DNA of 64,000 nucleotides from Singulisphaera sp. (GTDB taxonomy: Bacteria; Planctomycetota; Planctomycetia; Isosphaerales; Isosphaeraceae): the NCBI GenBank assembly GCA_027451445.1, contig DAIDJG010000093.1, positions 1 to 64,000 of the forward strand. The letters are read 5' to 3'. Positions 30,196 to 57,100 of the stretch are shown piece after piece; the first letter of the stretch is position 1, and each line of letters begins with the position of its first letter. The translations under genes were made by a program, and so were the position numbers. Under the pieces are notes generated by a model that was not told the DNA's origin, ran no database searches, and saw only the letters and a program-made list of their open reading frames with translations.

Positions 30196-30268
30196 GGGCG
30201 ATTAGCTCAGTTGGTAGAGCGCCTGCTTTACACGCAGGATGTCGGCGGTTCGAGTCCGTCATCGCCCA
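30196..30268 (+). tRNA. tRNA-Val(UAC); attachment site of the integrated element
   Basis: GGGCGAT/ATCGCCC acceptor stem, anticodon arm CCTGC-TTTACAC-GCAGG (anticodon TAC), GGTTCGAGTCC T-loop. Confidence 0.95.
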
Positions 30269-30416
30269 TTCGCGTAAGTCCGATAATGGCAGCACTTTGA
30301 AGTTCAATCCGAAGGTCGGATAAGAATCCCGGAAGGCCCAATAATTGTAGTACCGGTACTACCGGTGCGAACTCGTTGGGTAAATTCTCTTGTGGAGTCA
30401 CAAGGGAGTTTCCGAG

Positions 30417-31763
30417 ATGCCAAGACGTTCCGCGACCCGCCAGAAACCCGGCCCGAAACCCGCCAAGCAGCCGCCCTCCTATCGGCATTACAAGCCCAAG
30501 GATCTCGGCGTTGTGCGCATCAGGGGGCGCGACCGCTACCTCGGGAAGTTCGGCTCGCCTGAATCCTGGGAGAAGTATTACCGGTTGCTCGCGGAGGACG
30601 CCGCGCATGGCGGCGTGAATCCGGCGACCGCAACGAACGCGGCGACGTCAGGCCTGACGGTGAAAGAGGTGACGCTCAGGTACGACGACTTCGCCACCGG
30701 GTACTACGTCAAGAACGGAAAGCCCACGACCGAGGCGGGGCTGATTCGGCTCTCCCTGAAGGCCCTGAACAGGATCTACGGCAACACGCTCGCGAGCGAG
30801 TTCGGACCCAAGGCGCTCAAGACCCTCCGGCAGGCACACATCGACGCGGGCCTGGCCCGTACCGAGGTGAACCGACGCACTGGCCACATCGTCCGTTGCT
30901 TCAAATGGGCAACCGAGGAGGAACTTGTCCCGTCGTCGGTCTATCACGGACTCTCGGCCGTCAGCACTCTCCGCAGGGGTCACTCAACGGTACGGGAGAG
31001 CCCTCCAGTCTTGCCGGTCGCCGACGATCTGGTGGACGCCATCGAGCCGCACGTCTCCCCCCAGGTGTGGGCGATGATCCAGATCCAACGGCGCACCGGT
31101 GCGCGTCCCGGCGAGGTGTGCCAGATGCGGACCTGCGACCTGGACGTGACCGGCGAAGTGTGGCTCTATCGGCCTGAGTCTCACAAGACGCAGCACAAGG
31201 GCAAGGGCCGCGTGATTCCCATCGGCCCCCGCGCACAAGCCGTTCTTCGACCGTGGCTGAAGACCGAGCTTCAGGCCTACATCTTCTCGCCGAAGGAGTC
31301 GGAGCAGGACAGGGCGGTGCGATGTCGAGAAGCTCGCAAGACCAGGGTCCAGCCATCCCAGCGGCACCGAAAAAAGAAGGGCCGTGATCGGAAACTCGGC
31401 GACCGCTGGAGCGTCATGGCGTACTACCACGCCATCGTTCGTGCCTGCGACCGCGTGTTCCCGCACCCCGAGGTAGCCGCGTTCAAGGAAAAGGCCAAGG
31501 GCCTAAAGCGCGCGGAGCGCCGGCAGCTTCGAGAGGAACTCAAATCCTGGAAGGCGCAGAACGCCAAGGAGTTCAAGGCCTGGCGCAAGGAACACCGCTG
31601 GCACCCGAACCAGCTTCGGCACAACGCCGCAACTGCGATCCGGCGCGAGGAGGGACTGGACGCGGCGCGTGCTGTCCTCGGCCACTCGGACGCTGCGACC
31701 ACAACGATCTACGCAGAGCGCGACCTGAATCGCGCGGTCGCGGTGGCGCAGAAACTCGGTTGA
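30417..31763 (+). CDS. int: Tyrosine recombinase/integrase
   Basis: RRTGARPGEVCQMRTCDL...; HPNQLRHNAATAIRREEGLDAARAVLGHSDAATTTIYAE (R..HxLR..LGH..Y); abuts the tRNA. Confidence 0.95.
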   Translation: MPRRSATRQKPGPKPAKQPPSYRHYKPKDLGVVRIRGRDRYLGKFGSPESWEKYYRLLAEDAAHGGVNPATATNAATSGLTVKEVTLRYDDFATGYYVKNGKPTTEAGLIRLSLKALNRIYGNTLASEFGPKALKTLRQAHIDAGLARTEVNRRTGHIVRCFKWATEEELVPSSVYHGLSAVSTLRRGHSTVRESPPVLPVADDLVDAIEPHVSPQVWAMIQIQRRTGARPGEVCQMRTCDLDVTGEVWLYRPESHKTQHKGKGRVIPIGPRAQAVLRPWLKTELQAYIFSPKESEQDRAVRCREARKTRVQPSQRHRKKKGRDRKLGDRWSVMAYYHAIVRACDRVFPHPEVAAFKEKAKGLKRAERRQLREELKSWKAQNAKEFKAWRKEHRWHPNQLRHNAATAIRREEGLDAARAVLGHSDAATTTIYAERDLNRAVAVAQKLG

Positions 31764-31848
31764 AGATGTACACGAGCGGCTAATAATGATTTCAGAGGGA
31801 TAGTCCGTCTAGCTAACGGATGACTCGTCCGCGTCGGGAACGTCTGGT

Positions 31849-32766
31849 GTGCCTGCCAGGCAACTCGGCGCGGACGCTCCCCACTACAGGCACAACACCA
31901 TGCTCGACGACTCCCGCCAGGCTGCGCCCGCCGATACGCAAATCGACCAGCATCACAAGCATCAGCCGACTGCGGGACGATTCCGGGTCATGAACGAGAG
32001 CGAGAGCCGGGGGGCTTTCGAGGCGAGACGACCACGGCGGCCTGCGGGGCCAGCGCCCGAGTTCGATATCGAAACCGATGTCGTCGACGTGATCAGCGGG
32101 AAGGGCGACGAGGAGTTCGACAAGATCGTCTACGGACTGACTGACGGGTGTTGGGTTCTCGACTTAATGCTCGACATCGAGACCCCCGAGTTGTCGTTGG
32201 ACGAGACGAACCCGCCCCCTCGGCCGATCCTGGTCACGCCGGACTGGGTCTCGCGATTCTGCGCCCGGAACGACCAACACCTGCCCGAGAGCCTACGCGC
32301 GATCCCGGCAACGGAAGACTGCGATCCTACGGTGGACCCGCTCACTGAGCGTTTCTATCGGCAGTGCCGCGTATGGAAACTCGAACGCGCCGGCCTGCAA
32401 GCGACGTCAGAGGCTGCTGTGTCGCCGCCAGTGGCGAGCACAATCCGACCGCCGGCGGTCGGATCTGATCATGATACGCCCGAGTGGAATCCGAACACAC
32501 GCGAACTGTCGTTCCGGGGCAAGGTGCTATTGAAACTCAAGGCCAACGCCAAGCGCCAAATCGAATTGCTCGGACACTTCAGTCGGTACGGCTGGCGGCA
32601 GTCACTGACGTTCAAGAAGGGCGACTACAGGGAGATGTCTCAGGCCGCAAATGATCTAAACAAGCGCCTGCGCGAACAACACGGCGAACTAGCCCCAATT
32701 CGCTTCAACCGCGAGTCCGACCAAATCACCTGGACGATCACGAACGCGGACCGCGCCGGGAACTGA
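31849..32766 (+). CDS. Element hypothetical protein
   Basis: Long ORF; charged C-terminus ELSFRGKVLLKLKANAKRQIELLGHF; start uncertain. Confidence 0.55.
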   Translation: MPARQLGADAPHYRHNTMLDDSRQAAPADTQIDQHHKHQPTAGRFRVMNESESRGAFEARRPRRPAGPAPEFDIETDVVDVISGKGDEEFDKIVYGLTDGCWVLDLMLDIETPELSLDETNPPPRPILVTPDWVSRFCARNDQHLPESLRAIPATEDCDPTVDPLTERFYRQCRVWKLERAGLQATSEAAVSPPVASTIRPPAVGSDHDTPEWNPNTRELSFRGKVLLKLKANAKRQIELLGHFSRYGWRQSLTFKKGDYREMSQAANDLNKRLREQHGELAPIRFNRESDQITWTITNADRAGN

Positions 32767-32929
32767 TTCCCGCTTCTCCCCAACTCGGGGCGGTTTTCTC
32801 CCCGTTCTCCCCGTACTCCCCAGCAGATTTTTACCCCCTATCGCGGTTTCGCGCTTCCGGCGTTGGGTACCCTTATATAGGTGCAGAGCGTTGCATGAGT
32901 AACGTTGCATCCAATCAGGGGAATGCCTC

Positions 32930-33283
32930 ATGAGTTCGTGTGCTGTCGAGATTGGATTCGACTATGACGCCGAAGTGGAGCGTCTCCTCGACAACGAAGA
33001 GCCGATTGAGCCGGCGCACGCCCTGTGCAAGTTCGCGGGGGTGGATCGGGTGACCGGCTGGCGGTGGATGGAGCATGGGAGACGCGGCGTCCGCTGGCCC
33101 TACATCATGCGAGGCGGCCGGCGCTTCTCGTCCAAGGGCGCGTTGAAGCGGTTCTTCGCTGAGATTACGCGTCGGTGCAACGGCGGGTCCGTCCGGGAGC
33201 CCGAGACGGTGACGCTATCGAAACAGCGAGTCAGAGAACTCGAACGCGTCGACCAGCAGTTGGTCGCACGTGGATTGATGTGA
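32930..33283 (+). CDS. DUF1580-like small DNA-binding protein (excisionase/AlpA-like role possible)
   Basis: GVDRVTGWRWMEHGRRGVRWPYIMRGGRRFSSKGALKRFFAEIT. Confidence 0.7.
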   Translation: MSSCAVEIGFDYDAEVERLLDNEEPIEPAHALCKFAGVDRVTGWRWMEHGRRGVRWPYIMRGGRRFSSKGALKRFFAEITRRCNGGSVREPETVTLSKQRVRELERVDQQLVARGLM

Positions 33284-33484: not shown

Positions 33485-35479
33485 ATGACGCCCATCACCG
33501 GGACGCCAACATGGAACCCCTCTGAGTCGACTGCGAGTGTCTTCGAGGCCCCGCCTGCATTTTCCGGATTCGCGCCGGGCGCAGGGTTGTTCCAGACCTC
33601 GGCGGAGGTCGAGGAAAATTCCTTCAGGCTGAAGGAATTTCCGGCGCAGGACACCTCCCCCGTCGAGCCCGAACTACAGGTCGCCGGAGAGGCCAGTCAG
33701 ACGGGCGTGGCCGAACATCACGAGGGGGACATTGAGTCCACCAAGACGCGGATCGTAGACGCGCTACGCGTACTGATTCGCCCTGGGCAGACGGCCGAGC
33801 TTCGTGCGTGCAAGGTTTCTATACCCGGCAACAAGCCGGACCGCAGGCGACTCGTTACTCGCATCTTCACTTACGACCAGATTCCAGTGGTTGCCGCGCT
33901 CGCGACGTGGCTCACCCTGGAGGGTTCCGAGGCGGTGTACCTCACGCTCAACGAGGTGCATCCCGATCTGCTTGAGGAACAGCGGGCCGCGAGCGACCGC
34001 GACATCGTGCGGCGACGGTTTCTCCTGTTTGACTGCGACCCAGATCGACCGAGCAAAACCTCGTCCACGGTCGAGGAAAAGGTGCTCGCGTGGTCGACGG
34101 CGCAAGCATTGAAAGCCTACCTCGACAGTGCGGGATGGCCAGAGCCAATCGTCGCGGATAGCGGCAACGGGTATCACCTGCTCTACCGCGTGGACTTGCC
34201 GGGCGACGACGGCGGACTGATTGAGAGAGTTCTCCGGTCCGTGTCGGAGCGATTCACGACTGACGGCTGCTATGTCGATACCGGCGTCTTCAACGCGTCA
34301 CGCATCTGCAAGCTGTACGGGACGATTGCAAGGAAGGGTAGCGAAACTCCGGAGCGCCCGCACCGACGCTCTCGGATGCTCTCCGCGCCGGCCAACCCTG
34401 AGATCGTCCCTCTGGCGTTGCTGACGCAACAAGCTGACCTGGCGAGCAAGGTCGAGGAGCCGAAGGCGACCGGGACCAGACGAGAGCCCAAGGAGCCAAA
34501 GCCGGAGCGAGAACGCGTTGCCAAGGAGCCAAAGCCAGCCAAGCCGCCACGTGTCCGCAAGGCCCAACGGGATAAGCCGCTGCTTGGCACTCGAACGGGC
34601 GATGTGGAACGGCTGTTCAAATCTACCCAAAAGCGATGGCCCATCCTTCGACGGCACACCCGGAATCCGCTGATGTGTAAGGTTGTCTCGTACCTGATCG
34701 GCCGGCGTTACGACGACGAGACCACCGTGGCCGTGGCAATGCGGTGGCACTCCGTAGCCTACGATCCCGACCGCGACTCAAAAGACCCGACCGGATCGGC
34801 GACCAGTCCCGCCGAACACGAGTCGGAGGTGCGGGAGTACATCCGCCGAAAGCGCCTTGACCCAGACTTCCAGTTCGCAAGCGATTGGTACGACGACGCA
34901 CACCGGCGCGCCACCATCTCGCCGGAACTATCCGCTCTGCTGAAGTCCAGGACCCGACCGGGTCTACCGGGGGATCAGGACCCTATCGGATTGGGTCAGG
35001 AATCGAGTCCGGATTCGGAAGCCGGCGCAAGTAAAGAGGCGGCAAAGATCACGTCCCCACTATGCTATGGTTCACCTGGAATCGAAGAATTCCCATTTCT
35101 CCAACTTAGGAAACCCCTCTGTAGGGATCGGAACGAGGAACTCTATGTTGGTTCCAAGGCCGTACTTGTGGCTCGAAGCTTGGCACGCGGCGAGGAGAAT
35201 GTCTGGCTCACGGACGAGCAAGTCGCAGGAGTCTGCGAAAAATGGTCCGGCTGCCGGCTGACCCCACGCCAAGTCGCGGGCCACAAGCCGAAGTACGTCA
35301 CCCGCAAGAGCACGGCTAACTCACCCGCAGACCGCCCGGCGACCCACTGTGAGTTGCTTGTCGAAGTCCGCAAGGGCAAGCCAGGCGTTCCGTCCGAGTA
35401 TCGACCGACCGCCCTCATGATCAAGCTCGCAAAGGGCGTGTCGTTTGACCGTACTGCATCAACTGGAGACGCATCATGA
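33485..35479 (+). CDS. AEP-type primase-like replication protein
   Basis: LLFDCDPDRP, VADSGNGYHLLYRVDLP (sGxGxH-like), DTGVFNASRICKLYGTIARKG motifs in order. Confidence 0.7.
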   Translation: MTPITGTPTWNPSESTASVFEAPPAFSGFAPGAGLFQTSAEVEENSFRLKEFPAQDTSPVEPELQVAGEASQTGVAEHHEGDIESTKTRIVDALRVLIRPGQTAELRACKVSIPGNKPDRRRLVTRIFTYDQIPVVAALATWLTLEGSEAVYLTLNEVHPDLLEEQRAASDRDIVRRRFLLFDCDPDRPSKTSSTVEEKVLAWSTAQALKAYLDSAGWPEPIVADSGNGYHLLYRVDLPGDDGGLIERVLRSVSERFTTDGCYVDTGVFNASRICKLYGTIARKGSETPERPHRRSRMLSAPANPEIVPLALLTQQADLASKVEEPKATGTRREPKEPKPERERVAKEPKPAKPPRVRKAQRDKPLLGTRTGDVERLFKSTQKRWPILRRHTRNPLMCKVVSYLIGRRYDDETTVAVAMRWHSVAYDPDRDSKDPTGSATSPAEHESEVREYIRRKRLDPDFQFASDWYDDAHRRATISPELSALLKSRTRPGLPGDQDPIGLGQESSPDSEAGASKEAAKITSPLCYGSPGIEEFPFLQLRKPLCRDRNEELYVGSKAVLVARSLARGEENVWLTDEQVAGVCEKWSGCRLTPRQVAGHKPKYVTRKSTANSPADRPATHCELLVEVRKGKPGVPSEYRPTALMIKLAKGVSFDRTASTGDAS

Positions 35480-36093
35480 ACTACAAAGCCCTCGCACGCG
35501 CGGCGCTTGGCGTCGTCGACTTCCCAGGGTTCCTCGAAGCCGCTCTTGGGCCACCAGACCGACACGGACGATGGAAGTGCGTCTTCTGCCCAAGGCCAAC
35601 GGATCATCCGACGATGTACCTGACCCCGGATCGCCGTGAACTCCGCTGCGACAAGTGCCGGGGCCACATGAACGCCCTGGACTTCGCGCAGCGGCATCTC
35701 AAGCTCGAATTCCTCGACGCCGTACGCGTGATCGCACCGTCGCTCAGCGTTCCCAACAACGACAAACGCCAAAAGCGTGGTGCTGGCCACCGACATCGAG
35801 ACGGCGGCTTGTGGACGAAGCGGCCGGAGCGCCGGCATCGGCGGGATTGGCAGCACACCGCGACCCACCGGGCCGTACCGAGCATCTGGGACACCCGGCG
35901 AGACAAAATGGTCGCGGTCATGGTTGATCAGGTCGGCCTGCCCACGGAGATTGCGAGAGCCGAGGCGGATGGCGTGATCCGCAACTGCTTGGCGGCGCGG
36001 GATGCCTTCAGCGCGTGGGCCACGTATCTCGCGTCGGACCGGATGATGGCGGACGAGTTCTCGGATGAAGTCGTCCCAGAGGCGCCATGGTGA
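35476..36093 (+). CDS. CHC2/DnaG-type zinc-finger protein
   Basis: WKCVFCPRPTDHPTMYLTPDRRELRCDKCRGHMNALDFAQRH; 4-nt start/stop overlap with the primase ORF. Confidence 0.7.
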   Translation: MNYKALARAALGVVDFPGFLEAALGPPDRHGRWKCVFCPRPTDHPTMYLTPDRRELRCDKCRGHMNALDFAQRHLKLEFLDAVRVIAPSLSVPNNDKRQKRGAGHRHRDGGLWTKRPERRHRRDWQHTATHRAVPSIWDTRRDKMVAVMVDQVGLPTEIARAEADGVIRNCLAARDAFSAWATYLASDRMMADEFSDEVVPEAPW

Positions 36094-36694: not shown

Positions 36695-37837
36695 GTGGAA
36701 CCGACGATTACGACCATCAAGATCGGAGACATCGAGATCCCGAAAGCACGCGCGTTTCCCAAAGGCAAGGTGAAAGACCCCAAGCGGTTGGAACGCGAGG
36801 CGGAGCGGGAGTCTGAGGCCCAAGAATTGGCTCAGTCAATTCGGTTCCAGGGTCTCCTGCACCCGATCGGGGTCCGGAAGACCGGTCGATTCAAATACGA
36901 CCTTATCTACGGGAGACGACGTGTCAAAGCTGTCAAGTCTCTTGGGCACGACGAGATCAAGGCGACGGTCTACAGCGACATCACGGACGAATACGCGAAT
37001 GTGTTGAAGGCCACGGAGAATATCCACCGCCAGAAACTCACCGAGAAGCAAAAGGATGCCGCTCGGCGAGTCTGGTTGAAGCTCTTTGAGGAAAAACTGA
37101 AAGCGGAGCGGAACGCCTTCGACGGAGGCGACACGAATGTGTCCAGGAACGACGGCGAGCACGCCGATTCCGAGACTACCCCCAAGCGGACGGCTTATGG
37201 GGCTATCAAGGCGTATCAAGAACTGACTGGCACAAGCCGGCCGGACGCTGAACGCGACATGCGCATCACGACGAAGCTGACCGAGGAAGAGGTTGGCACG
37301 CTGACCGACAACGGCGCAGGCAAGACGGACCTCGATTCCGTCGCTCGGATCGCCGACCCGCAAGCCCGATCCAAGGTGGTTGAGCGGGTTGGCTCGGGCG
37401 AGAAGGTCAACGACGCGATCGCCCAGGAAACCTCGGCACCAGATGGCAAGGTCAAGCGCGCAGACGGAAGCATCGTCGAGACTGAGCGCAGCAAAGCTAT
37501 CCAGAAGATGAACGACCAGGAGTGGGTCGAGAGAGAGTGTTCTACAATCCGGTCCAAGTTGCGGAACCCGGAAGCGTTCGACGCGGCAGCGATTGATTAC
37601 CGGAAGATGAAGGACCATCTCCACGAGCTTAAGAAGATTCGCATCGCCTCCAACTCGGCACGTCTCAAGAACGGCCTTTCTTCGACCGCCATGGCCCGCA
37701 AAGTCTATGGGGTAACCTCCATCTCGCACCCCCAGGCGTGGCTTCTCTGTGGCGAGTGCGACTCGACGGGCCAATCCGACCAGGGCGGCCCCTGCGCCAA
37801 CTGCAACGGCGATGGCTTCAAGATCAAGACGGAGTAG
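36695..37837 (+). CDS. ParB/RepB nuclease-domain-like protein with C-terminal zinc-knuckle-like motif (GTG start likely)
   Basis: AQSIRFQGLLHPIGVRKTGRFKYDLIYGRRRVKAVKSLGHDEIKATVY; ATENIHRQKLTEKQK; C-terminus CGECDSTGQSDQGGPCANCNGDGF. Confidence 0.8.
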   Translation: MEPTITTIKIGDIEIPKARAFPKGKVKDPKRLEREAERESEAQELAQSIRFQGLLHPIGVRKTGRFKYDLIYGRRRVKAVKSLGHDEIKATVYSDITDEYANVLKATENIHRQKLTEKQKDAARRVWLKLFEEKLKAERNAFDGGDTNVSRNDGEHADSETTPKRTAYGAIKAYQELTGTSRPDAERDMRITTKLTEEEVGTLTDNGAGKTDLDSVARIADPQARSKVVERVGSGEKVNDAIAQETSAPDGKVKRADGSIVETERSKAIQKMNDQEWVERECSTIRSKLRNPEAFDAAAIDYRKMKDHLHELKKIRIASNSARLKNGLSSTAMARKVYGVTSISHPQAWLLCGECDSTGQSDQGGPCANCNGDGFKIKTE

Positions 37838-38049
37838 CAACGCAGGCCGCCAGCCGAGCCGAATCCCCGATCCGCTCCTGGAGTATCCTTCCCCGCCCGA
37901 TTTCGGCGGGTCGCCGCCGCTACGTTGTCACGGCGCACAGCGACGGAAAGTACCGTCTATGTCGGACCCTGCCCTCTAAACCCAACCCGAGGAGCTGCGC
38001 GTAGTCGCCGCCGAGTTGATCGGTGGCGGCCCGCGTCGCTATCAACATC

Positions 38050-38547
38050 ATGAGCAACAACAAGCGGAAACTGCCTCAGATCACAAGTCGGTGGGTCAGG
38101 ATGGCTGGCGGCCGAGTGAGGGATCTGGAGAAAGACGAGGCCGAGGAGAAGCTGCCCGATCAAGTTTGGCTGGAGACCGTGTGCGGTGATGTCCGCAGCC
38201 GTATCGCCGAAGCGAGGCGACCATTGTTCGACCAGGAGGCACTCGCGTTCCGGCGGAATCGGCACAGGCGGATTGAGTATGTCAGCGGAAGCGAGTCCCT
38301 CCTGCTGAAGGCCAGCGAGCAGCTAGGCAGGTACGGGCCTTACACGTATGCGATCTACTTTCTCTACTCGGCCGCGCACCCGAAGTTTTGGAGGGCCTGC
38401 CGGGAGTGCCAAGGGGCCGGCGCGATCGACAGGGACAAGCTACCGGGCATCCCGCCGTGGGTGTGCAGGAAGTGCCGGGGAGCCGGGTTCCGGGTCACTC
38501 GAAGGAGCGAACGCCACACCGAGAGCGCGCGGAAGCCGACAGGTTAG
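38050..38547 (+). CDS. Hypothetical protein with C-terminal CxxCxGxG-type motifs
   Basis: CRECQGAGAIDRDKLPGIPPWVCRKCRGAGFR. Confidence 0.6.
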   Translation: MSNNKRKLPQITSRWVRMAGGRVRDLEKDEAEEKLPDQVWLETVCGDVRSRIAEARRPLFDQEALAFRRNRHRRIEYVSGSESLLLKASEQLGRYGPYTYAIYFLYSAAHPKFWRACRECQGAGAIDRDKLPGIPPWVCRKCRGAGFRVTRRSERHTESARKPTG

Positions 38548-39076: not shown

Positions 39077-39688
39077 TTATAGCAAGTGCCGATCTGCTAT
39101 TCGATCGTACCACCTTCGATCATCCTCGTCTCCTACGGCCCCACACACCATATCGGCGAGCTGAAGCATCTCGTCTGATTTAGAATTTCGGAACATTACC
39201 TTCCCGACCAACGGTAGGCCCTTGCGTAGGCCGCCGAATTGCTGCTTCAAGATGGCAAGATACTCGGAGTCCGAGTTGTCGTCTACGACTACTTGCTCCT
39301 TGAAATGGCGTCCACGCGTTTCCTCGGCCTGGCAATACACCGGGCGAAGAAGGGCCGCGACTTCGACTGCGCACCCCCAGTGTATCGCGGATCCTGTGGC
39401 ACAGCACCATGATTTATCCGTTTTATCTACAACCCCGATTGCGAATCGGAATTCTTGACTCATTGCTGCCGCGAAAAACGCATCACGATAACTCGATTGA
39501 CATGTATTTGCATACCTAAATTCATACGTGGATTTCAGAGTCAACTGGGGCCGAATCGTCCTGATCTTCTTCCGAAAACCATCGGCGTCATCGAGTGTAG
39601 GGACCCAAACCGCCGCGAGCCGAAAATAGGGCTTGCCCCCACTCGCTACGCTACCAGTATCTCCAGATTCATCTATAAACGTCGGCAT
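39077..39688 (-). CDS. DUF3800 domain protein
   Basis: MPTFIDESGDTGS N-terminus; DEMLQLADMVCGAVGDED C-terminal motif. Confidence 0.85.
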   Translation of the reverse strand: MPTFIDESGDTGSVASGGKPYFRLAAVWVPTLDDADGFRKKIRTIRPQLTLKSTYEFRYANTCQSSYRDAFFAAAMSQEFRFAIGVVDKTDKSWCCATGSAIHWGCAVEVAALLRPVYCQAEETRGRHFKEQVVVDDNSDSEYLAILKQQFGGLRKGLPLVGKVMFRNSKSDEMLQLADMVCGAVGDEDDRRWYDRIADRHLL

Positions 39689-39760
39689 ACTAACACCAGT
39701 AATTACAAGCGACCCGCGAGGGTGCCGGGCCTCTGATTTGGAAGCGCGGGCTAACAAGAT

Positions 39761-40309
39761 CTAAGGTGACTGGTTGCCCGTCGACTCGGCCTGGACATTA
39801 TCGGAGGTTGACAGAGGAGACGGTATTGTCGCACCGATCTCGCTGGCTCGGCTTGCGAAAGCCACCCACCACTCCTCGGGGACCCTTCCTTCCGCGTGCA
39901 GGCGAGAGCAAACCGCGAGTGGGTTTACGAGTAGGACATGCCCGATTTCACGGTTACCCTCCCGCTTAACGCGGATGAAACCAAGGTCCGCCAGCTTCCC
40001 AACGTGCTCCCGCCAAGTCCGAAGAGCGCGAGTGCCCGTGTAGCCAGCTGCATACGCGCACTGCTCCTCATCGACTATCGACACGATCCCCTCGTCGTGG
40101 CTCCGACACCACAAGTCGAGGTATACCGAGGTCGGATCGCCTTTTTCGGTAAGACGTCGGATTAGATGCAGGACGAGCGGAAGCAACCTTGGGACGGTGG
40201 TGAAGCCAAGGTTCGTTGATCGTTGCCAGATCAGCGACCCAGAACCGGGCCAAAGCGTCTCTCTGAGTCGCTCGCGACGTCGAGCGGGAACGGCCTTGTC
40301 AACTGGCAT
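39761..40309 (-). CDS. RepA-like/wHTH protein (possible replication initiator)
   Basis: TVPRLLPLVLHLIRRLTEKGDPTSVYLDLWCRSHDEGIVSI...LRTWREHVGKLADLGFIRVKR. Confidence 0.6.
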   Translation of the reverse strand: MPVDKAVPARRRERLRETLWPGSGSLIWQRSTNLGFTTVPRLLPLVLHLIRRLTEKGDPTSVYLDLWCRSHDEGIVSIVDEEQCAYAAGYTGTRALRTWREHVGKLADLGFIRVKREGNREIGHVLLVNPLAVCSRLHAEGRVPEEWWVAFASRASEIGATIPSPLSTSDNVQAESTGNQSP

Positions 40310-40490
40310 GCATGCACTCCAAATCAATGCGGCGCTCTAGCGTCAGTGAATGGTAATCTTGCAAGAGTTGTTGACGCAAGAGTGGAGTGCCGCTTTATTC
40401 GGGTTATCCGCTACTACGACTTGACTTCGGGCTTTCCAGAGTGTGACATGGGCGTCCGATGCCTGACGCTGCCGTGACGCTTCAATACGT

Positions 40491-40635: not shown

Positions 40636-41246
40636 TCAAGCGCCAGCCGAAAAGCACGACGCAAGGCGCAGACTCAGGTTCCAGAAACCCACTGAATCAA
40701 CTTGAACCATAGAGCCGGGCTGAAGACTGAGGGAGGCGACAGCCACCGACCAATCTGGCAAGCCACCAATGCCTCGGGGCTTGCGTCAACCCGACGAGGA
40801 AAAGTTTGTGAGTCCACGACGAAGATTGCAGATTGTAAGCCTGACTGGACTGCGGAACGATCTCGTGCTGGGAGTTCTGGGATGCGGACATCACGCGAGG
40901 CATTTCAGGTCTGTCCGCCCACATTCATGCCCGCATGAATGCATCGTGGGTAGACTTAGAATGAGGCGCCGGGCGGCCGCGCGGGTAGGCCCGAGAAACG
41001 TTGATTTGCCGCCGAGCACCGAACAAGGGGCCGTGCTGATCCGAGAGGGTTGGTGCGGCCCCACTGGTTTCGACTTCCATCGTTCCGATGATGGACAACG
41101 CGCGGTCGACGAAAAAAGTTGCCTAAAACCCTGGCGTGTGATAGGGTGACCAGCAATGGCCCCACGTTCACGGACGGTGCATGGGTTCAGCGAATGGCAG
41201 TCGTTGCCACTGTCTCGCGGTCCCGCCGTACAAATCAAAGCGCCAA

Positions 41247-42035
41247 ATGGATCAAGAGCCGACACCGACAGCCGATCCACTCGTCACAGGAGCACCCCCA
41301 GCTGAGACGCCTCAACAGGTCTCACCTGAAGCGCTCTCGCTCGCGGAACTCGCTTTCAAGGCCCACGACTACTACTTTCGTGAACGCGAAGCGCTGATCC
41401 TCGGCGAGGGTGAGGCGGTCAAGAGCTTCGATACGCACCTGATCACGCTATCGACGGCCGCACTTGGACTATCGGTCCTTTTTATCGAAAAACTGGCGAG
41501 TCATCCTGAGCCATCGACGTTGACATGGCTGGTTATTGCATGGTTCCTATTTGGAATTACGCTCTGTCTCATGTTGATTTCTTTCCTTATGAGCCAGTCA
41601 TCTTGGAGTAGGCAACGCGAGATTCTTGATCACAATCACAAAATAAGGCAAGAGCACCTACCAGAAGGAACGCCACTGCCAAAGTCCTCTTTCGGGTTCC
41701 TGCCGGAGGATTCTCCCTGGACGATTTCGTTTAGGAAATTAGAAGCGAAACATGAAAACGCGTGGGGCGAATTGACGCGTCAAATCAACCGTTGGGCTCT
41801 CGGTTTCTTTATGACCGGCGTGTTCTCGCTCTTGCTATTCTGTGCCCTCAACATCGGAGACCGCATGACGAACAGAGAAACTCGCGCCACAACTCCAGGT
41901 GAGCAACGCGGCGCATCCGCAACCCCTTCGGCAGTCCCACCACCGTTGCCTACTTCGGGGCCTGGGCAAGCAAGCCAATCGTCCTCAACGCCAAACAGCG
42001 CGACGACAGGAGGTTCCGGTAATTCCTCGAAGTAG
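41247..42035 (+). CDS. Membrane protein with ~3 TM helices and a low-complexity tail
   Basis: LITLSTAALGLSVLFI, WLVIAWFLFGITLCLMLISFLM, WALGFFMTGVFSLLLFCALNI. Confidence 0.7.
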   Translation: MDQEPTPTADPLVTGAPPAETPQQVSPEALSLAELAFKAHDYYFREREALILGEGEAVKSFDTHLITLSTAALGLSVLFIEKLASHPEPSTLTWLVIAWFLFGITLCLMLISFLMSQSSWSRQREILDHNHKIRQEHLPEGTPLPKSSFGFLPEDSPWTISFRKLEAKHENAWGELTRQINRWALGFFMTGVFSLLLFCALNIGDRMTNRETRATTPGEQRGASATPSAVPPPLPTSGPGQASQSSSTPNSATTGGSGNSSK

Positions 42036-44426: not shown

Positions 44427-44549
44427 TAAGTCCATCGTCGTCCGAGAGGCGAATAAGCAGTCGAGATGCACACCAGGGGTCGACGATCGCACCCACGCCG
44501 GATAGATTCGAGGGACGGCGAAAGTTGCCGCACCTGGAGGGCCTGGGCC

Positions 44550-46752: not shown

Positions 46753-47031
46753 ATGGCGGTCAAAGGGGAAATCGCCATCCTGGTCTCCAAGTGCGTGCGG
46801 TGCATGGCCTACTATCACGACTACCGTTCGTACCCGAACGCCGATGCGGTCATGTCGGCAGAGATTCGGTTCGCACGCTTCCAGGCTTCGGCCCTTGGTC
46901 TCGCAGAAGATCACATCGAGAGACTCGTAGCTCATCCAGTCGAGCGGAACCTGGTCGCACGGTACGGTAACGAATTGGGACACTCGCTGTTCGATGCCTT
47001 CAAGAAGGAGTTTGAATCGGCCGGCGACTGA
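46753..47031 (+). CDS. Hypothetical protein
   Basis: MAVKGEIAILVSKCVRCMAYYHDYRSYPNADAVM; GGAGAGG upstream. Confidence 0.55.
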   Translation: MAVKGEIAILVSKCVRCMAYYHDYRSYPNADAVMSAEIRFARFQASALGLAEDHIERLVAHPVERNLVARYGNELGHSLFDAFKKEFESAGD

Positions 47032-47533: not shown

Positions 47534-47959
47534 TCAAGGAACAGTGCTTTCCGTTCGTCTGCACCCCTCGAATCCACTGAACGGCTCACCGTCCGGCGTG
47601 TAGAGAAACTTCATCCCCCGCGAGCGCAGCCCATCCCCACCAACCCAACCCTTGGAGCGCAAGGCGCGGACATGGGTCATCAGGCCGTTTGGGGATGAGA
47701 ATCCGAAGTTCCGGTAGACCTCGCGGACGCTAGGCTGGTAGCCGTTCTTGCGAGTCTGATCGAAGATGAAACGGTATATCTCAGCCTGACGCTCGGTCAG
47801 CGGTCTGGGCGCGATCTCGGTCGGCGGCGTCGGCGAACCTCGGGGGCAATAACGTCCGTTAAGGCGCTGAGTTATCGGTCTCAGGCGGATGCCGAAGCTC
47901 CACGAACATGACGCTGGTGTCCGGTATCCAAACCGACGTGACGGTTTGCGTCTTGACAT
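47534..47959 (-). CDS. LexA-type N-terminal wHTH protein without a peptidase domain (true start probably internal)
   Basis: PRPLTERQAEIYRFIFDQTRKNGYQPSVREVYRNFGFSSPNGLMTHVRALRSKGWV. Confidence 0.75.
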   Translation of the reverse strand: MSRRKPSRRFGYRTPASCSWSFGIRLRPITQRLNGRYCPRGSPTPPTEIAPRPLTERQAEIYRFIFDQTRKNGYQPSVREVYRNFGFSSPNGLMTHVRALRSKGWVGGDGLRSRGMKFLYTPDGEPFSGFEGCRRTESTVP

Positions 47960-48283
47960 CCAGCGTGCTCAGGTACAGGTGATCGTGAGTCTTGCGGTCG
48001 TAGAAGCCAGAGATCGGCGGTTGAGCCGGATCTTTGAAATGGACGGTCGCACGCACACCGCCCTTCATCTGCATCATGCCGAAGAACCAACGGGTATCCG
48101 TCTTCCTGGCGATGACTCTCCACGAAATCTCGTCGTAAATATCCCGGTAGCAGTTGATGAGCCACTGGTTTGTCGAGACCGCCTCCGTGACGCTGATACC
48201 GACGAAGGTTGCGAGCGAGAGAGCCAGCAAGGCTATAGACTTCCAACTGAACGCCACGTCCAGAAACTTATTCATGGTTGTCA
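47859..48283 (-). CDS. Small membrane protein
   Basis: MTTMNKFLDVAFSWKSIALLALSLATFVGI; start overlaps the preceding gene's 3' end. Confidence 0.55.
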
Positions 48284-48714
48284 TCTCCTTCCAGGCGATC
48301 CTTGAGCTTTGACAGATCAAAGGAAGACGGACGGCGCTTCTCCCGGCGGCGAGGTTGCCGAGGGGCAGGGGCCGGCTTGGGAGGCCTTGCCGTAGCTTTC
48401 GGGGCCGGCGGCGGGACCGGCTTCGGGCGTTCAACCGGCGGCACATCGGGGGGCTTCACGATCGGAATTGGCGGCGGCGGGGCGACGGGAGCCGGAGCAA
48501 CGGCTTTCTTCTTCACGCCACCCTCGAAATGCTCTACATCCTCGATGCGGAACCTGACGAGACTGCCAATCCGCGTCGCGCGGAGTTGATGGGACTTCAC
48601 GAGGCGGTGGACAGTGCCTCGGGAGACAGACCACCGCTTCATCAGATCATGGAACGTGAGCAGGACGGTGCCGCCGGGTGGCTGTGGCGGCGGAGGTGCG
48701 GACGATGGCTCCAT
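48268..48714 (-). CDS. HTH_17/excisionase-type DNA-binding protein with Pro-rich tail
   Basis: LLTFHDLMKRWSVSRGTVHRLVKSHQLRATRIGSLVRFRIEDVEHFE. Confidence 0.75.
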   Translation of the reverse strand: MEPSSAPPPPQPPGGTVLLTFHDLMKRWSVSRGTVHRLVKSHQLRATRIGSLVRFRIEDVEHFEGGVKKKAVAPAPVAPPPPIPIVKPPDVPPVERPKPVPPPAPKATARPPKPAPAPRQPRRREKRRPSSFDLSKLKDRLEGDDNHE

Positions 48715-49000: not shown

Positions 49001-49348
49001 CTACGCCGGCAGTGGCTCCCGGTTCGCGCCGCTCCATACCGGTATTTTGCCGGATGCCAAGATGCCATCGAGCGTCACCAGGGTTCGCTCCAACCTCGCG
49101 ATCCAGGCGTCGAGCCTCTTGCGCTCGCGTCGGTCGGCTGCGGTGTCTCCGAGGAGTTCAAGACGCTGCTTAAGGGCCATGGTTTTCAGCTTCGCACGTA
49201 ATCGCGCCTTACCGATCGACTCCGACCGCCCGAGGGCCACGACGAGCACCTGACGTGTCTTGCCGGCGACCGATACAGTGCGCACCACCTGATAGTACGT
49301 GTGACCCCTGACGGTCTTCTTCCTGATGAACATCGGCCGTTCCTCCAC
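49001..49348 (-). CDS. Stand-alone protein resembling the N-terminal domain of IS1634-type transposases
   Basis: MFIRKKTVRGHTYYQVVRTVSVAGKTRQVLVVALGRSESIGKARLRAKL. Confidence 0.5.
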   Translation of the reverse strand: MEERPMFIRKKTVRGHTYYQVVRTVSVAGKTRQVLVVALGRSESIGKARLRAKLKTMALKQRLELLGDTAADRRERKRLDAWIARLERTLVTLDGILASGKIPVWSGANREPLPA

Positions 49349-49791: not shown

Positions 49792-51870
49792 TCACTGGGG
49801 AATTGTCCCGAACATGATGGCCCTGAGCAGATCCAGGTTCCCGCGCTGCTTCGCCAGATCTTGTTCGGGAGACGTGAAGAAGTACCCGGACAACGCACTG
49901 TCGAGCAGGCGCGAACGGTCCTTCTTTCGTGCCTCGACCTTGTTAGCGAGGGTCTCCCGGTCGCGCCATGTCGCGTCGGGGTCGTAGGTGAGTTCCTTCA
50001 CCAACTTCTGGTAGTCCTGCATCATCGCGGGATCGCGTTCGAGGATGTTGCCGATAGCTTGGGCAAGCGGGGATTTGGCCGCCTCCAGCGGGTTTGCGAA
50101 CTGCGGGAGCGACGTCCGGAATCGCTGGAGCACGTCCGAGAGGTTGTTGTACGGCTTACCCGTCAGAGGATTGGTGAAGAAGTCCTTATGGCCCGCATCG
50201 CCGAGCACGTACCACGGATCGACCGGCGGGGGAATCCGCCGCTCCTCGGCAGACTCGAACGCGGGAGGTGCAGACTTCGGTTTCGGCGGAGCCGCCGGGT
50301 TCGGCTGCACCGGGTTGGCGACCGGTTGTCCAACGGGTTGCACGACCGGCTGTGCCGAAGGTGGGGGCGGTACGACGGCAACCTGTTGAGGCTCCGGTTG
50401 ACCCTGAGCCCCAGCCCTTGGGGGAAGCATCCCTGCACCGGCAGCCGCACCGAGGGTACTCATGGCATCGCGGTGGTCGCGGCCGGCGGCGATCATTGCC
50501 CAGTACGCCTTGCGATCCTCCGGGGTGAGATTGGCCACCTCTGCGCGGTTCTTCTCCGTCTCGGAGTTCATGTGGGCCACCTGAGCCGGGGTCAGTTGCG
50601 CGAGGTTCGTGGCCTGAGCGTTTAGGTGCCCTGCCAGCGCCTGCTTGTACGCCACCTCGGCCGCGTGATTCTCGGCTTGCTCTCGCCTGGCCTGCTGGAA
50701 GTCTGCCGGCAATAGCCCCATGGCGGCCGGCGAGAACGCATTTCCTGGGACCGCCCCACCGTGGATCGCGGCCAGCAACTCGCCGCCAGGTCGCGCTGCC
50801 TGCTGGGGCCGCATCACCGTCCGGTTGCCGTAGGCGATGACCCCGCCACCGTCCGACGATGGAATCCGAGCCGCGTGCGCCGGGTTTAACGCGACACCAT
50901 GCGCCCCCTTGGACGGGATGTTGGTGTAGTCGGGCTGACGATCGAAGATGTCCTGACCAGGATCTTGGAATTCCGAACGGTAGAACGCCCTGGGAGCCAC
51001 CGAAACACTGGGCGGTGGCACAGGAGCAGGTATGAGTCCCCTCTCGCGCAGCGCCGTTGCGACGTCCGGCCTGCCCGCCCCCTCACGCACATTGTCAGGC
51101 GGAACCGAGCGAAAACCGGCCGCGTTCACCAAAGGGGAATCCCCGAGACGCAGGATGCCCTCATCGCTGAATCCGCCCTCTCGGCCGGTGGGCTGGATCG
51201 GGCTGCCGAAAATCCCGTTGCCGTCGCGGCCAATCTGGACCTGCGCCTGGAACTCGCCGAGGTTGCGGGCTGGGCCGATGTCGCCGTGTAGCTGCTCACC
51301 CGACATCAACCGGGCGTATAGACTGTTCGCGTTGGCGGCGTTCGGGCCTGGGCCACCCTGAGTCCGATTCCAGTACGCCGCCACACCTTGATCGTGCACC
51401 GACTGAGCCCTCTGCTGTGCCGGCGACGGTGGACCGACGAACCCGCCAGCGCCACGCTCCTGCTGCGCAATCTTCTGCCAGCCACCGGGAGCCGCCTCGG
51501 TGCGGTTGAACGCCTGGGCTTGTGCGCGGAGATCGGCCTGCGGCAAGAGCGGACGTTGCATCAGGGAGCCGAGATGGGCATCCATCGCAGCCTGAGAGAC
51601 CGGCTGGCCCATCTGGGCTCGCTGCGTCACCGTCGTCTGTGGGGTTGCCGGAGTACCCCTGAAGCTGCCGTACGGGTCGTATTCCCCTGATGCGACCCGC
51701 GCCTGGGCACGCGCGAACATCGGCTGTTGGGCCGTGGCACGTCGGCCGAGCGGAGTGTCGGCGAATCCCGCCATGCTGAACGTTGAGCGTGGAAGCGTCG
51801 GGCGGGGGGCGGGGCGAGAAGGCTGAAACTGAGTCGCAACGTTGCCGGGCTGGAAGACATCACCGTTCAT
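49792..51870 (-). CDS. Large Pro/Ala/Gln-rich hypothetical protein
   Basis: Longest element ORF; likely start MNGDVFQPGN; low-complexity linkers; YDPDATWRDRETLANKVEARKKDR near the C-terminus. Confidence 0.65.
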   Translation of the reverse strand: MNGDVFQPGNVATQFQPSRPAPRPTLPRSTFSMAGFADTPLGRRATAQQPMFARAQARVASGEYDPYGSFRGTPATPQTTVTQRAQMGQPVSQAAMDAHLGSLMQRPLLPQADLRAQAQAFNRTEAAPGGWQKIAQQERGAGGFVGPPSPAQQRAQSVHDQGVAAYWNRTQGGPGPNAANANSLYARLMSGEQLHGDIGPARNLGEFQAQVQIGRDGNGIFGSPIQPTGREGGFSDEGILRLGDSPLVNAAGFRSVPPDNVREGAGRPDVATALRERGLIPAPVPPPSVSVAPRAFYRSEFQDPGQDIFDRQPDYTNIPSKGAHGVALNPAHAARIPSSDGGGVIAYGNRTVMRPQQAARPGGELLAAIHGGAVPGNAFSPAAMGLLPADFQQARREQAENHAAEVAYKQALAGHLNAQATNLAQLTPAQVAHMNSETEKNRAEVANLTPEDRKAYWAMIAAGRDHRDAMSTLGAAAGAGMLPPRAGAQGQPEPQQVAVVPPPPSAQPVVQPVGQPVANPVQPNPAAPPKPKSAPPAFESAEERRIPPPVDPWYVLGDAGHKDFFTNPLTGKPYNNLSDVLQRFRTSLPQFANPLEAAKSPLAQAIGNILERDPAMMQDYQKLVKELTYDPDATWRDRETLANKVEARKKDRSRLLDSALSGYFFTSPEQDLAKQRGNLDLLRAIMFGTIPQ

Positions 51871-52910: not shown

Positions 52911-53396
52911 ATGTCCATTCTACAGCGTCGGTCCGCGCACACCAAACCCCGAGTGTTCGGTGAGGGCCTACTCGAACCGGATGACGCTCCCGCCCGTCTG
53001 GAGCCGACGAACGCCAGCAAGCCGGGGCAGACCTGCCGACTGACCCTGACGATCAACTCGGCCGACTACCGGCTGCGCGTCATCCCCTGCGATCCGAGCG
53101 CCGCGTTGCTCTGCATCGAACTCCGCAAGCAAACCCAGGACAAGCCGGTCTATCACGTCAGCCTCCATCCGCATGGCGCAGAGTGCACCTGCGCTGACTT
53201 TGTTCTGGTCCGTGACGGGCGCGACCCCCTCGGGTGCAAGCATTGTCGAGCCTTGCGTGCCATCGGCATTCTCCCGCCGGTTCAGCCTCCGACCGCCAAG
53301 CCAGTCTCCCGCCCGCCGTCGCCAATCTTCTCGCGCGACACTGCCCGCCGTATCGCAGGCACGCGCATCGGATGCCACCACGACTCCGACGACTGA
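52911..53396 (+). CDS. SWIM-zinc-finger-like protein
   Basis: ECTCADFVLVRDGRDPLGCKHCRAL (CxCx(n)CxH). Confidence 0.55.
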   Translation: MSILQRRSAHTKPRVFGEGLLEPDDAPARLEPTNASKPGQTCRLTLTINSADYRLRVIPCDPSAALLCIELRKQTQDKPVYHVSLHPHGAECTCADFVLVRDGRDPLGCKHCRALRAIGILPPVQPPTAKPVSRPPSPIFSRDTARRIAGTRIGCHHDSDD

Positions 53397-53482: not shown

Positions 53483-54298
53483 ATGTCCCGCATCAATCGC
53501 AACGAATTCGAGCGCATCGGCAGAGTCGAGCGCGACGAGAACCTGACCCACGCTGAACTGGAAACGCTACTGACCGATGCCAAGGGCGGTTCCCTGGAAG
53601 CCCGCCAGCGCATCGTGACGAACTTTGTGCCGACAGTGATCAACATCGTGGCGCGCCACTACTCGGATTACACGTACGCTCGCCGTGTCGTCTCGGCCGA
53701 TGACTTGATCCAAGTCGGCACAATCGCCGTCTTCAAGGCGATCGACAACTGGAAGCCAGGTTGGCTCCCGTTCCCCTACCTCGTGAAGTGCTGGATTCAC
53801 CGCGAGATCCGGTACGAGTTGATCCAGATCGGTGGCGCGGTCCGCCTGCCGATGGACTCGTACGGTGTGTGGCGCAAGTGGGTGAAGGTGCGCGATCAAC
53901 TGACGGACGAGTTCCTGAGAGTCCCCTCGCGGGACGAGATCATGGCGCGCGGCGAGTTCACCGAACGTGACGCGTTTCTCGCCGAACTACTCGACCGACG
54001 TCGCTCCAAGATTCGCAGCAAGCCGTCGCGGTTCCGCAGGGCGGGAATGTCGCGGTCAAGCGAAGCGGTCGAACCCCGCAACGATCAGGAAAAGGCGGAT
54101 CTGCGAATCGACGTTGCCGAGGGAATGTCTCGGCTGCCAGCGCCGGAAGCTGAGACCATCCGTGCGCGGTTCGGCATCGACGGTCGAACACCGCTCAAGC
54201 TGCGAGAGGTTGCCGAACAGGAAGGGATCAACCTCTCAGCCGCGTTCACCCGCGAGAAACGGGCGCTGGAGAAACTGGCCTACCTCGTGGCGGTTTGA
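53483..54298 (+). CDS. Element-borne sigma-70 family factor 1
   Basis: VVSADDLIQVGTIAVFKAIDNWKPGWLPFPYLVKCWIHREIRYEL; region 4 LKLREVAEQEGINLSAAFTREKRALEKL. Confidence 0.85.
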   Translation: MSRINRNEFERIGRVERDENLTHAELETLLTDAKGGSLEARQRIVTNFVPTVINIVARHYSDYTYARRVVSADDLIQVGTIAVFKAIDNWKPGWLPFPYLVKCWIHREIRYELIQIGGAVRLPMDSYGVWRKWVKVRDQLTDEFLRVPSRDEIMARGEFTERDAFLAELLDRRRSKIRSKPSRFRRAGMSRSSEAVEPRNDQEKADLRIDVAEGMSRLPAPEAETIRARFGIDGRTPLKLREVAEQEGINLSAAFTREKRALEKLAYLVAV

Positions 54299-54365: not shown

Positions 54366-54629
54366 TCAACGCTCTGGAGGGGCTTCATCGAAACCCTGCT
54401 CTTTCACGTATTTCGCTACAGCGATGTCTACGAGAGCCGATGCGTCTACACGACAATGTTTTGCCGCCCGACCCAACCACTCCCGCCATTCGGCCGAACC
54501 TTTGACGGCGATCGCGGTCGGCTTTCGCGAGGAGGCACCCTCGTCTTTTGATTTCTTTTGTTCGGCCACGGCGGTCATGACTCGCATTTGAGTGGTTGGT
54601 TCCTCTGGCTGCAAGTGTAAACGTCCCAA
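54366..54629 (-). CDS. Small RHH/CopG-like protein
   Basis: KPTAIAVKGSAEWREWLGRAAKHCRVDASALVDIAVAKYVKEQGF. Confidence 0.55.
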   Translation of the reverse strand: MGRLHLQPEEPTTQMRVMTAVAEQKKSKDEGASSRKPTAIAVKGSAEWREWLGRAAKHCRVDASALVDIAVAKYVKEQGFDEAPPER

Positions 54630-55282: not shown

Positions 55283-55361
55283 CCGCCGAACCTCACATCC
55301 GGGGCCGGTTCAGGCTGGCCCCACTCTGGCTCACCGACCGACACCCTGGAGCTTCAACGCG

Positions 55362-56072
55362 ATGACGACCCGCAGACGACTGACGAGGGAGGAGGAGCAG
55401 GCGCTCGTCACCAGAATGCTGGCTGGAGACATGGCCGCCCGAGATGAGCTTGTGTTGAACTACAACGGGCTGATCACGATCATCGCCCGCCGTTACGTTC
55501 GCCCAGGCACCGATACGCGCGACCTGCAACAAGAAAGCCGCCTCGCGATACTCAAGCTGGCCCCGACGTTCAAACCGGGCCGGACGCCATTTGCCGCTTT
55601 CGTCCGGTACACGATCCACTCGGCTTGCTTCCAAGCTACGGCCGTGCGCGGCGGGATCGTCGTGGTTCCCCTGCGCGTGGCTGCCATCCGTCGAAAGTGG
55701 TGTCGTGCGGCCGAGGAGCTTGCCAACCAACTTGGACGACGACCCACTAACGAGGAGATTCGAGTGGCGGTCGACTGCCCCAAGAGCATAGCCGAACACG
55801 TCATCACCGCCGGCCTCGAACGTGCCGACAAGGAGCTTGACACCATCTGCCGAGATGATCGCCCTGACGTGGATCGTACAGCGTCAGCGCGAGCAGAAAA
55901 CCTCCTCGGCCAACTGGACGAGTTTGCGGCGAACGTCCTCCGCGCCAGGTACGGAATCGCACCGTACTCGCCGCTGTCTCTGACAGCCGCCGGCAGGGCG
56001 CTGGGCTGCTCGGGGTCGCACGTCCATCGTACCGCCCAGCGAGTGATCGCGCAACTGGCATCGGGCGTGTAG
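55362..56072 (+). CDS. Element-borne sigma-70 family factor 2
   Basis: VLNYNGLITIIARRYVRPGTDTRDLQQESRLAILKLAPTFKPGRTPFAAFVRYTIHSA; C-terminal HTH LSLTAAGRALGCSGSHVHRTAQRVIAQL. Confidence 0.8.
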   Translation: MTTRRRLTREEEQALVTRMLAGDMAARDELVLNYNGLITIIARRYVRPGTDTRDLQQESRLAILKLAPTFKPGRTPFAAFVRYTIHSACFQATAVRGGIVVVPLRVAAIRRKWCRAAEELANQLGRRPTNEEIRVAVDCPKSIAEHVITAGLERADKELDTICRDDRPDVDRTASARAENLLGQLDEFAANVLRARYGIAPYSPLSLTAAGRALGCSGSHVHRTAQRVIAQLASGV

Positions 56073-56157
56073 TCACCACCCGGCCCATGCATGGGTATCT
56101 TTTATAGGAGACCGCCGACGTGATGGTCTCCCAGGCATACCGAGGAGCCAACCTACG

Positions 56158-56784
56158 ATGGCGAAGCGTCAGGCCAAGCCGCAGACAAATAGCGGGAAGA
56201 AGCCACGAAGCACGGCACGCAAGAGCAAGAAAGACGCCGCATCCCCGACCAGCCCAGAGTCGCCCAACGGTCCGGCCCTGTGGAAAGAGGCAAGCCTCTC
56301 GCGGGAGATGGACCCGGACTGGATGACCAGCGCACGGCGGGCCGCCGAGTACATCGCTGAACAGAACGCAGAAACCGGCGCATTCGCCTACCCATGGAGG
56401 GGCGACTCTATCGCGGCTCTCGGCATCAAATCGAATAGAGACGATCCGATGCTCGCGATTACCTGCACCTACGCCATGTACGCACTTCAATGCACGGCCG
56501 GGGTCGAGGTTCTCGGATTCAACGTCAGCGGAGTGGCCGCCAACGGTTCGGTGGCATTCGCCGGGGTCGTCAGAATCTCAAGCGAATGGACGTACGACGC
56601 GATCCAGCAGCGGTTCTTCAACGACTGCCGACACTTCTTCCAGATGTGGGGCAAACTCGGCGAGGCGGAACGGCTGCTGTTAGAAGGTTCCTTCCCGTCG
56701 CCCCCGCCAGTCACTGCGGAGACCGACAACGCCTCACCCGAGCAGACGGCGGCGACTTGGATGCCACCGATCACGAACACCTGA
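56158..56784 (+). CDS. Hypothetical protein with basic N-terminus
   Basis: Coding-like ORF ending just before a terminator. Confidence 0.55.
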   Translation: MAKRQAKPQTNSGKKPRSTARKSKKDAASPTSPESPNGPALWKEASLSREMDPDWMTSARRAAEYIAEQNAETGAFAYPWRGDSIAALGIKSNRDDPMLAITCTYAMYALQCTAGVEVLGFNVSGVAANGSVAFAGVVRISSEWTYDAIQQRFFNDCRHFFQMWGKLGEAERLLLEGSFPSPPPVTAETDNASPEQTAATWMPPITNT

Positions 56785-56816
56785 TCTGACCCGCCATCAA
56801 CGACGACATCCATGAG

Positions 56817-56850
56817 AGCCTTCCGGCGTCACAACCGGAGGGCCTTTCTC
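56817..56850 (+). terminator. Terminator-like hairpin
   Basis: GCCTTCCGG-cgtcacaa-CCGGAGGGCCTTTCTCTTT. Confidence 0.7.
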
Positions 56851-57056
56851 TTTGCGCTGGTGACGATCGGATAGAGCGCCTGCCGAGAACGCAGGTAGCC
56901 TCGACGCCGGGTACTACCGGTACGACATCTAGCCCCGAAATACTACAACGGCGGGTACTATTTTGCACGACATGCAACACTTGCCTTATGCGTCGGTTTG
57001 CCGTAAGATAGTTATGCACAAGAGACTTCCGGGAAGTGCACCTATAGTGGACAAAC

Positions 57057-57100
57057 GCTTTACACGCAGGATGTCACTGGTTCGAGTCCGGTATCGCCCA
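57057..57100 (+). pseudogene. tRNA-Val 3'-half (distal attachment site)
   Basis: GCTTTACACGCAGGATGTCACTGGTTCGAGTCCGGTATCGCCCA. Confidence 0.92.

Follow-up and report, generated by a model that had tools for sequence, protein, structure and literature searches.

Phage-inducible chromosomal islands (PICIs) and their capsid-forming counterparts (cfPICIs) have been described mostly from Proteobacteria and Firmicutes. The phage-inducible chromosomal minimalist islands (PICMIs) of Vibrionaceae are satellites defined by an integrase, an AlpA/HTH_17 regulator and a primase; they lack capsid-remodelling genes and their helper has been demonstrated. Tycheposons and virion-encapsidated integrative mobile elements (VEIMEs), both from marine bacteria, are tRNA-associated tyrosine-recombinase elements with cargo, which in tycheposons is mainly nutrient-related, and are thought to be carried in virions. 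In the literature library searched, no paper linked phage satellites with Planctomycetota. In this study, a 26,832-bp element integrated at a tRNA-Val gene was analyzed in a 64,000-nt stretch of DNA (the window; contig DAIDJG010000093.1 of assembly GCA_027451445.1) and compared with these systems. The window is part of a 107.6-kb contig in a 10.9-Mb draft genome of the family Isosphaeraceae, which also holds Singulisphaera. The element is a real, well-delimited mobile island, and its own integrase, helix-turn-helix (HTH) and primase core, together with its relatives, make it most probably satellite-like.

An earlier note, made from the letters of the window alone, had proposed a 26.9-kb tRNA-Val-integrated element with 19-bp core repeats at both ends and an integrase beside the intact tRNA. 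These claims stand, and the repeat extends to 44 nt (30225-30268 versus 57057-57100; 89% identity, the first 19 nt exact), the spacing of the two copies giving the size of the island. The features of the two ends are as follows.

30196..30268, + strand: intact tRNA-Val(UAC), the left attachment site (ARAGORN, Rfam)
30225..30268, + strand: left attachment (attL) copy, comprising the core and the 3' half of tRNA-Val (its last 44 nt), by repeat comparison
30346..30370, + strand: palindromic motif TAGTACCGGTACTACCGGTGCGA, a putative arm-type site of the integrase (or Xis site), with a similar site in most related elements
30417..31763, + strand: tyrosine integrase, 448 aa (PF00589, 1.3e-16), with homologues behind tRNA genes
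56910..56925, + strand: second putative arm-type site, GGTACTACCGGTACGA, by motif search
57057..57100, + strand: right attachment (attR) copy of the tRNA-Val 3' half, giving a full cloverleaf with the left 5' half

Either copy completes a tRNA cloverleaf with the 5' half on the left, so that a full tRNA-Val would be rebuilt on excision. The copies differ at five T-arm positions, but the changes are paired and preserve the stem, and folding gives a T stem of five pairs in both. Such differences do not resemble decay; each copy derives from a functional tRNA gene. In the standard integration model the right copy is the host's original, and paired differences are as expected if the element imported its tRNA 3' end from another lineage; the T stem of the relatives (GGGGG/CCCTC) is nearer to the left copy.

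Within each end the island has an exact copy of the 16-mer GGTACTACCGGTNCGA, which begins 87 nt past the tRNA on the left and stops 147 nt short of the core on the right. When up to three mismatches are allowed, the window holds six matches, a number reached in none of 100 shuffles. Most related elements have a site of the TAGTACCGGTACTACCGGTGCGA kind some 60-90 nt past the tRNA. In most of 11 delimited elements, some of which have other integrase homologues (39-58% identity), the tRNA is followed by the palindrome CCGGTAGACTACCGG or a variant of it, and a word of at least 11 nt is common to both 50-nt end windows in five of these 11, versus 0.5% of random interior pairs. Because the motifs recur at similar positions in related elements, they are probably arm sites to which the integrase would bind. 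At the level of sequence, integrase, half-tRNA repeats and matching arm motifs thus mark out a single unit that is integrated site-specifically. Genomes of three other genera (G008, G025 and G026) share the left neighbourhood (cmk, plsC, a small open reading frame (ORF) and tRNA-Val), with no integrase gene detected behind the tRNA. The right flank is not syntenic, and the one same-genus genome compared (G009) has no tRNA at the corresponding place. The same tRNA-Val(UAC) gene in Singulisphaera acidiphila carries a different element of 37.3 kb.

This mode of integration is shared by a large group of integrases. Homologues were found in 30 of 45 genomes of the bacterial family. Among 19 elements surveyed there, the integrase lies directly behind the tRNA gene in 17, and in eight the 3' half of the tRNA recurs downstream, from tRNA position 28-33 onwards; further tRNA-proximal attachment repeats were found in elements outside this survey. 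In named genomes, nearly all of them Planctomycetota by record title, a tRNA gene precedes 62 of the 71 closest testable homologues by 79-226 nt, and 20 anticodons are represented. A DUF1580-type HTH gene follows the integrase within about 10 kb at 34 of 51 genome loci and at 17 of 20 IMG/VR loci, and the order integrase, HTH gene, replication gene is common to the window element and its relatives; the literature search found DUF1580 nowhere discussed. Two partial integrase homologues elsewhere in the host genome (G000:C354:5465-5863 and G000:C442:87-665) are probably what is left of other elements.

Every larger ORF was compared with Pfam and PHROGs at permissive thresholds, and also with NCBIfam and PADLOC; gene calling in these 70%-GC genomes included a codon-position filter. 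Between the attachment copies lie the integrase, DUF1580 HTH, primase, zinc-finger and ParB-like genes, a cargo block of lower G+C content, genes for a LexA-type domain, an HTH_17 protein and two sigma-70-like factors, and several unassigned ORFs. The genes of replication and regulation are as follows.

32930..33283, + strand: DUF1580-type HTH protein, a probable AlpA/Xis-like regulator and core gene of the family (PF07618, 1.9e-4; profile matches in most relatives)
33587..35479, + strand: archaeo-eukaryotic primase (AEP) with an N-terminal primase domain (motifs, predicted fold)
35476..36093, + strand: CHC2-like zinc-finger protein, weak, translationally coupled to AEP (PF01807, 1.3e-3, below cut-off)
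36695..37837, + strand: ParB-like protein with C-terminal zinc-binding CxxC motifs (PF02195, 6e-13; relatives)
38023..38547, + strand: paralogue of the C-terminal zinc domain of ParB (comparison with relatives)
47534..47959, - strand: LexA-type DNA-binding domain without a peptidase domain, a putative repressor (PF01726, 7e-17)
48268..48714, - strand: HTH_17 excisionase/AlpA-like protein (PF12728, 3e-8; phrog_66, 3e-7)
53483..54298, + strand: sigma-70-like factor 1 (phrog_351, 5e-24)
55362..56072, + strand: sigma-70-like factor 2 (hidden Markov model (HMM) scans)

The ParB, the LexA-type HTH and both sigma factors had been named in the earlier note and are recovered by HMM; its CHC2 zinc finger rests on the weak match listed. 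A 72-aa ORF (55064-55282) resembles an internal stretch of the relatives' ParB-like proteins and is possibly a ParB fragment. The primase, likewise predicted, has no Pfam match and no real match among PDB sequences. However, its DxD, SGNG (SGNGxH-like) and D/R (D...R) positions are invariant in an alignment of ten sequences, and the fold of its AlphaFold2 model (pLDDT 89, pTM 0.83) matches Prim-PolC (E 1e-4) and, most closely, the plasmid primase RepB' (E 4e-7). Its identity is settled by this predicted fold, according to which the product is a true AEP. Homologues of the AEP domain occur in 22 of the 45 genomes of the bacterial family, and no relatives were found in IMG/VR. In relatives, D5, RepA-like or DUF3987-like helicases are fused to AEP or lie next to it (domain names partly assigned by reading the sequences).

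These genes raise the possibility of an integrative plasmid or other self-replicating integrative element (tycheposon- or AICE-like) that would excise, replicate by AEP and ParB and spread without phages, by natural transformation, vesicles or other means. The AEP, ParB-like and zinc-finger genes are of plasmid type, the nearest fold is that of a plasmid primase, one AEP homologue lies on a Methanomethylovorans plasmid, and the window element has no packaging gene. However, the AEP is also related to phage primases, plasmids in PLSDB share no more than the AEP domain, and terminase and capsid genes are found in relatives that have this integrase and regulator. This explanation is therefore considered somewhat unlikely.

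No terminase, portal, capsid, tail or protease gene was matched among the larger ORFs with any of the four collections, nor, in Pfam, any relaxase, type IV secretion system (T4SS), coupling protein or FtsK, and the PHROGs matches are limited to integration, repressor, sigma, antitermination and DNA metabolism functions or have no assigned function. Terminase_6N (PF03237) matches two other contigs of the host genome and none on the contig of the element, so that the host has candidate helper phages. The absence of recognisable virion and conjugation genes, as read in the earlier note, was thus upheld, and the HMM check that it proposed revealed no full virion or T4SS module. A complete virus with virion genes too divergent for detection has in its favour several ORFs without homologues, among them the following.

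49792..51774, - strand: Ala/Gln/Pro-rich protein of 660 aa, mostly disordered and without homologues (searches, model)

This protein has no homologue in phage records, IMG/VR or planctomycete genomes, and its model is mostly disordered (pLDDT 47). A G019 protein of similar size and composition, located beside SWIM and sigma genes, was considered as a homologue and rejected, there being no significant similarity. A cryptic structural gene may exist among this low-complexity protein and several matchless small ORFs. A packaging ATPase, portal or protease, however, usually the most recognisable genes of a virus, is missing, and no structural category appears among the PHROGs matches; a divergent virus is accordingly a very improbable explanation.

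The same scans separate the element from the named families. Neither a small terminase or capsid-interference gene (PICI), nor HK97 capsid genes of its own (cfPICI), nor an alpha primase-helicase or Sid/Psu (P4-like satellites) was found with Pfam and PHROGs; Pfam gave no relaxase or T4SS match (integrative and conjugative or mobilizable elements, ICE/IME) and no FtsK/TraB-like translocase (actinomycete ICE, AICE). The element resembles PICMIs in its integrase, HTH_17 regulator, primase and lack of capsid-remodelling genes, but its AEP has no DUF3987/DUF5906 domain, as the PICMI primase does, and its site is tRNA-Val, whereas PICMIs lie next to fis, have about six genes and bear no sigma, ParB or large cargo genes. 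Its integrase beside an intact tRNA, with the tRNA 3' repeat at both ends, is that of a tRNA-integrated tyrosine-integrase element, and its likeness to tycheposons and VEIMEs is one of tRNA association, tyrosine recombinase and cargo. The element falls outside the definitions of PICI, cfPICI, PICMI, P4, ICE and AICE, and no membership of a named family is claimed; in its manner of working it is like a satellite or an integrative replicon.

Related elements lend support to a phage-satellite-like reading. The integrases of elements in S. acidiphila DSM 18658 (NC_019892, ~2,062,660-2,100,050) and Singulisphaera sp. GP187 (~182,450-218,320) are 49-51% identical to that of the window. Both elements share with it a tRNA site, a core starting in the anticodon loop, a similar arm motif, the DUF1580 HTH and a SWIM gene near the far end, and the GP187 element also shares AEP. 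However, they are larger (35.8-37.3 kb) and have other cargo; the GP187 element encodes a D5 helicase and the S. acidiphila element a Toprim primase, which the window element lacks, and there are large tail- or protease-like ORFs of unassigned identity. The relatives sharing the integrase and DUF1580 HTH, and in part also AEP or ParB-type genes, range from small islands through elements with a small terminase only and elements with an HK97 capsid and no recognised large terminase to putative proviruses. Three of them are listed here.

G031:C1, L174:1045-14770: 13.7 kb, at tRNA-Ala, with Terminase_2 (5e-13), a family-A-polymerase-like gene and restriction-modification-like genes
G028:C2, ~3391720-3408294, L021/L022: 16.5 kb, at tRNA-Pro, with Terminase_4 (3e-28; P27-type small terminase), Phage_capsid (1e-24; HK97), AEP and a RepA-like helicase
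G029:C33, L197:337-14897: 14.2 kb, at tRNA-Pro, with ParB-like and primase genes, Phage_capsid (3e-21; HK97), S78 protease (1e-39) and a tape-measure-like ORF

By reading rather than a full HMM scan, no large terminase or portal was recognised in these three; the reading covered the large ORFs for G031 and G029 and the list of genes for G028. The AEP gene of the G028 element is apparently interrupted by a transposase gene. The likeness to PICIs and cfPICIs thus comes from some relatives, which have a small terminase alone, or a capsid set, and no recognised large terminase; neither is present in the window element.

Terminase_6N exceeds the cut-off in two of 20 virus-classified contigs bearing the integrase, so that some carriers may be full phages, and the best relative of the window ParB lies in a prophage-like region of GP187 (G038:C5, ~5245000-5274000, L102-L104) with sigma factors, ParB and a terminase- and portal-like gene pair identified by reading. 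Both observations would suit a decayed prophage of this integrase lineage, from which the genes for head, tail and packaging have disappeared and to which cargo has been added. However, the integrase, primase, ParB, regulators, attachment sites and arm motifs are all intact, and no full virion set is present in many independent relatives either, so that its absence is the common state and not fresh decay; such an origin is judged improbable.

The earlier description, an integrative plasmid or phage-satellite-like island of planctomycetes, holds for an integrative planctomycete element with replication and regulation genes. Its satellite-like part is strengthened by several relatives with the integrase and HTH in common, which carry a small terminase and/or HK97 capsid without a recognised large terminase; the integrative plasmid is neither demonstrated nor excluded. 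The following results weigh against a satellite: no second copy of the window element was found in another genome; searches of it revealed neither a small terminase nor a capsid, cos/pac site or other hook for packaging, so that dependence on a phage is argued by analogy with the relatives; and no helicase domain or gene was recognised in it, so that one from the host or helper would be needed. On balance, a satellite-like integrative island of Planctomycetota, moved by a helper, is favoured with moderate confidence.

In such an island, the integrase, aided by the HTH_17 or DUF1580 protein as excisionase or activator, would recombine the cores in the anticodon loop, which would free a circular form and leave tRNA-Val restored. 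The AEP, zinc-finger and ParB-like proteins would replicate this circle with a helicase supplied by host or helper. The LexA-like repressor would keep the element silent, and the two sigma factors would turn on late gene expression. Transport of the DNA to a new cell would depend on a helper phage or, with lower probability, on a conjugative element, and the PF14350, sce7726 and perhaps DUF3800 genes would repay carriage by blocking other phages. These and the remaining genes are as follows.

31849..32766, + strand: frame of 305 aa, no family match (HMM scans)
39077..39757, - strand: DUF3800 protein, cargo (PF12686, 5e-11)
39761..40327, - strand: putative small DNA-binding protein, cargo, no significant family (HMM scans)
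41181..42035, + strand: membrane protein, cargo, weak 8xMP similarity (PF24838, 6e-4, below cut-off)
42481..43620, + strand: 'Beta protein' PF14350, similar to PD-Lambda-2 component C, probable defence cargo (6e-61; component C match 6e-45)
43481..44155, - strand: sce7726 family protein, probable defence cargo (1e-51; PADLOC-DB 'cll', 7e-31)
44466-44888 and 44893-45303, + strand: two small membrane-protein ORFs (ORF and HMM scans)
46753..47031, + strand: small conserved protein (homologue in the GP187 element)
49001..49348, - strand: small basic protein of a family-wide type (profile matches in the G031, G037, G038 and G041 elements; the protein itself is one seed)
52953..53396, + strand: SWIM-type zinc-finger-like protein (homologues in related elements)
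54366..54629, - strand: small protein kept in related elements (sequence comparison)

The product of 39761-40327 had been read as a wHTH/RepA protein; a DNA-binding role is retained as putative and the RepA identity was not confirmed. PD-Lambda-2 component C is needed for defence against lambda in Escherichia coli. The adjoining PF14350 and sce7726 genes are likely defence cargo, judging from these family matches; a PD-Lambda-2 system was rejected, as the C-like component occurs without components A (HigB-like) and B (HigA-peptidase), which are absent from the element. A 21-nt inverted repeat (34-nt spacer, 95% complementary; window 44355-44430) in the gap that separates the sce7726 gene from the ORF after it is possibly a remnant resembling a miniature inverted-repeat transposable element, and a 54-nt direct repeat (83%; window 38720-38773 and 41020-41073) flanks the DUF3800 gene pair, a possible sub-insertion. 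SWIM matches in many genomes proved to be ordinary chromosomal genes.

The element belongs to a large planctomycete family that is apparently undescribed. It is tentatively suggested, at somewhat less than even confidence, that this is a phylum-wide satellite superfamily whose chassis of integrase and DUF1580 HTH exchanges modules for replication (AEP, family-A polymerase, D5 or RepA helicase, Toprim) and for packaging (none; a small terminase alone; a small terminase with a capsid; capsid, protease and tape-measure-like protein) and jumps among tRNA genes via anticodon-loop cores with a shared CCGGTA-N-TACCGG arm site. A common integrase-regulator chassis in putative proviruses and capsid-poor islands offers a natural series for testing the origins of satellites, and indicates where anti-phage genes are likely to be carried in this phylum, of whose phages almost nothing is known.

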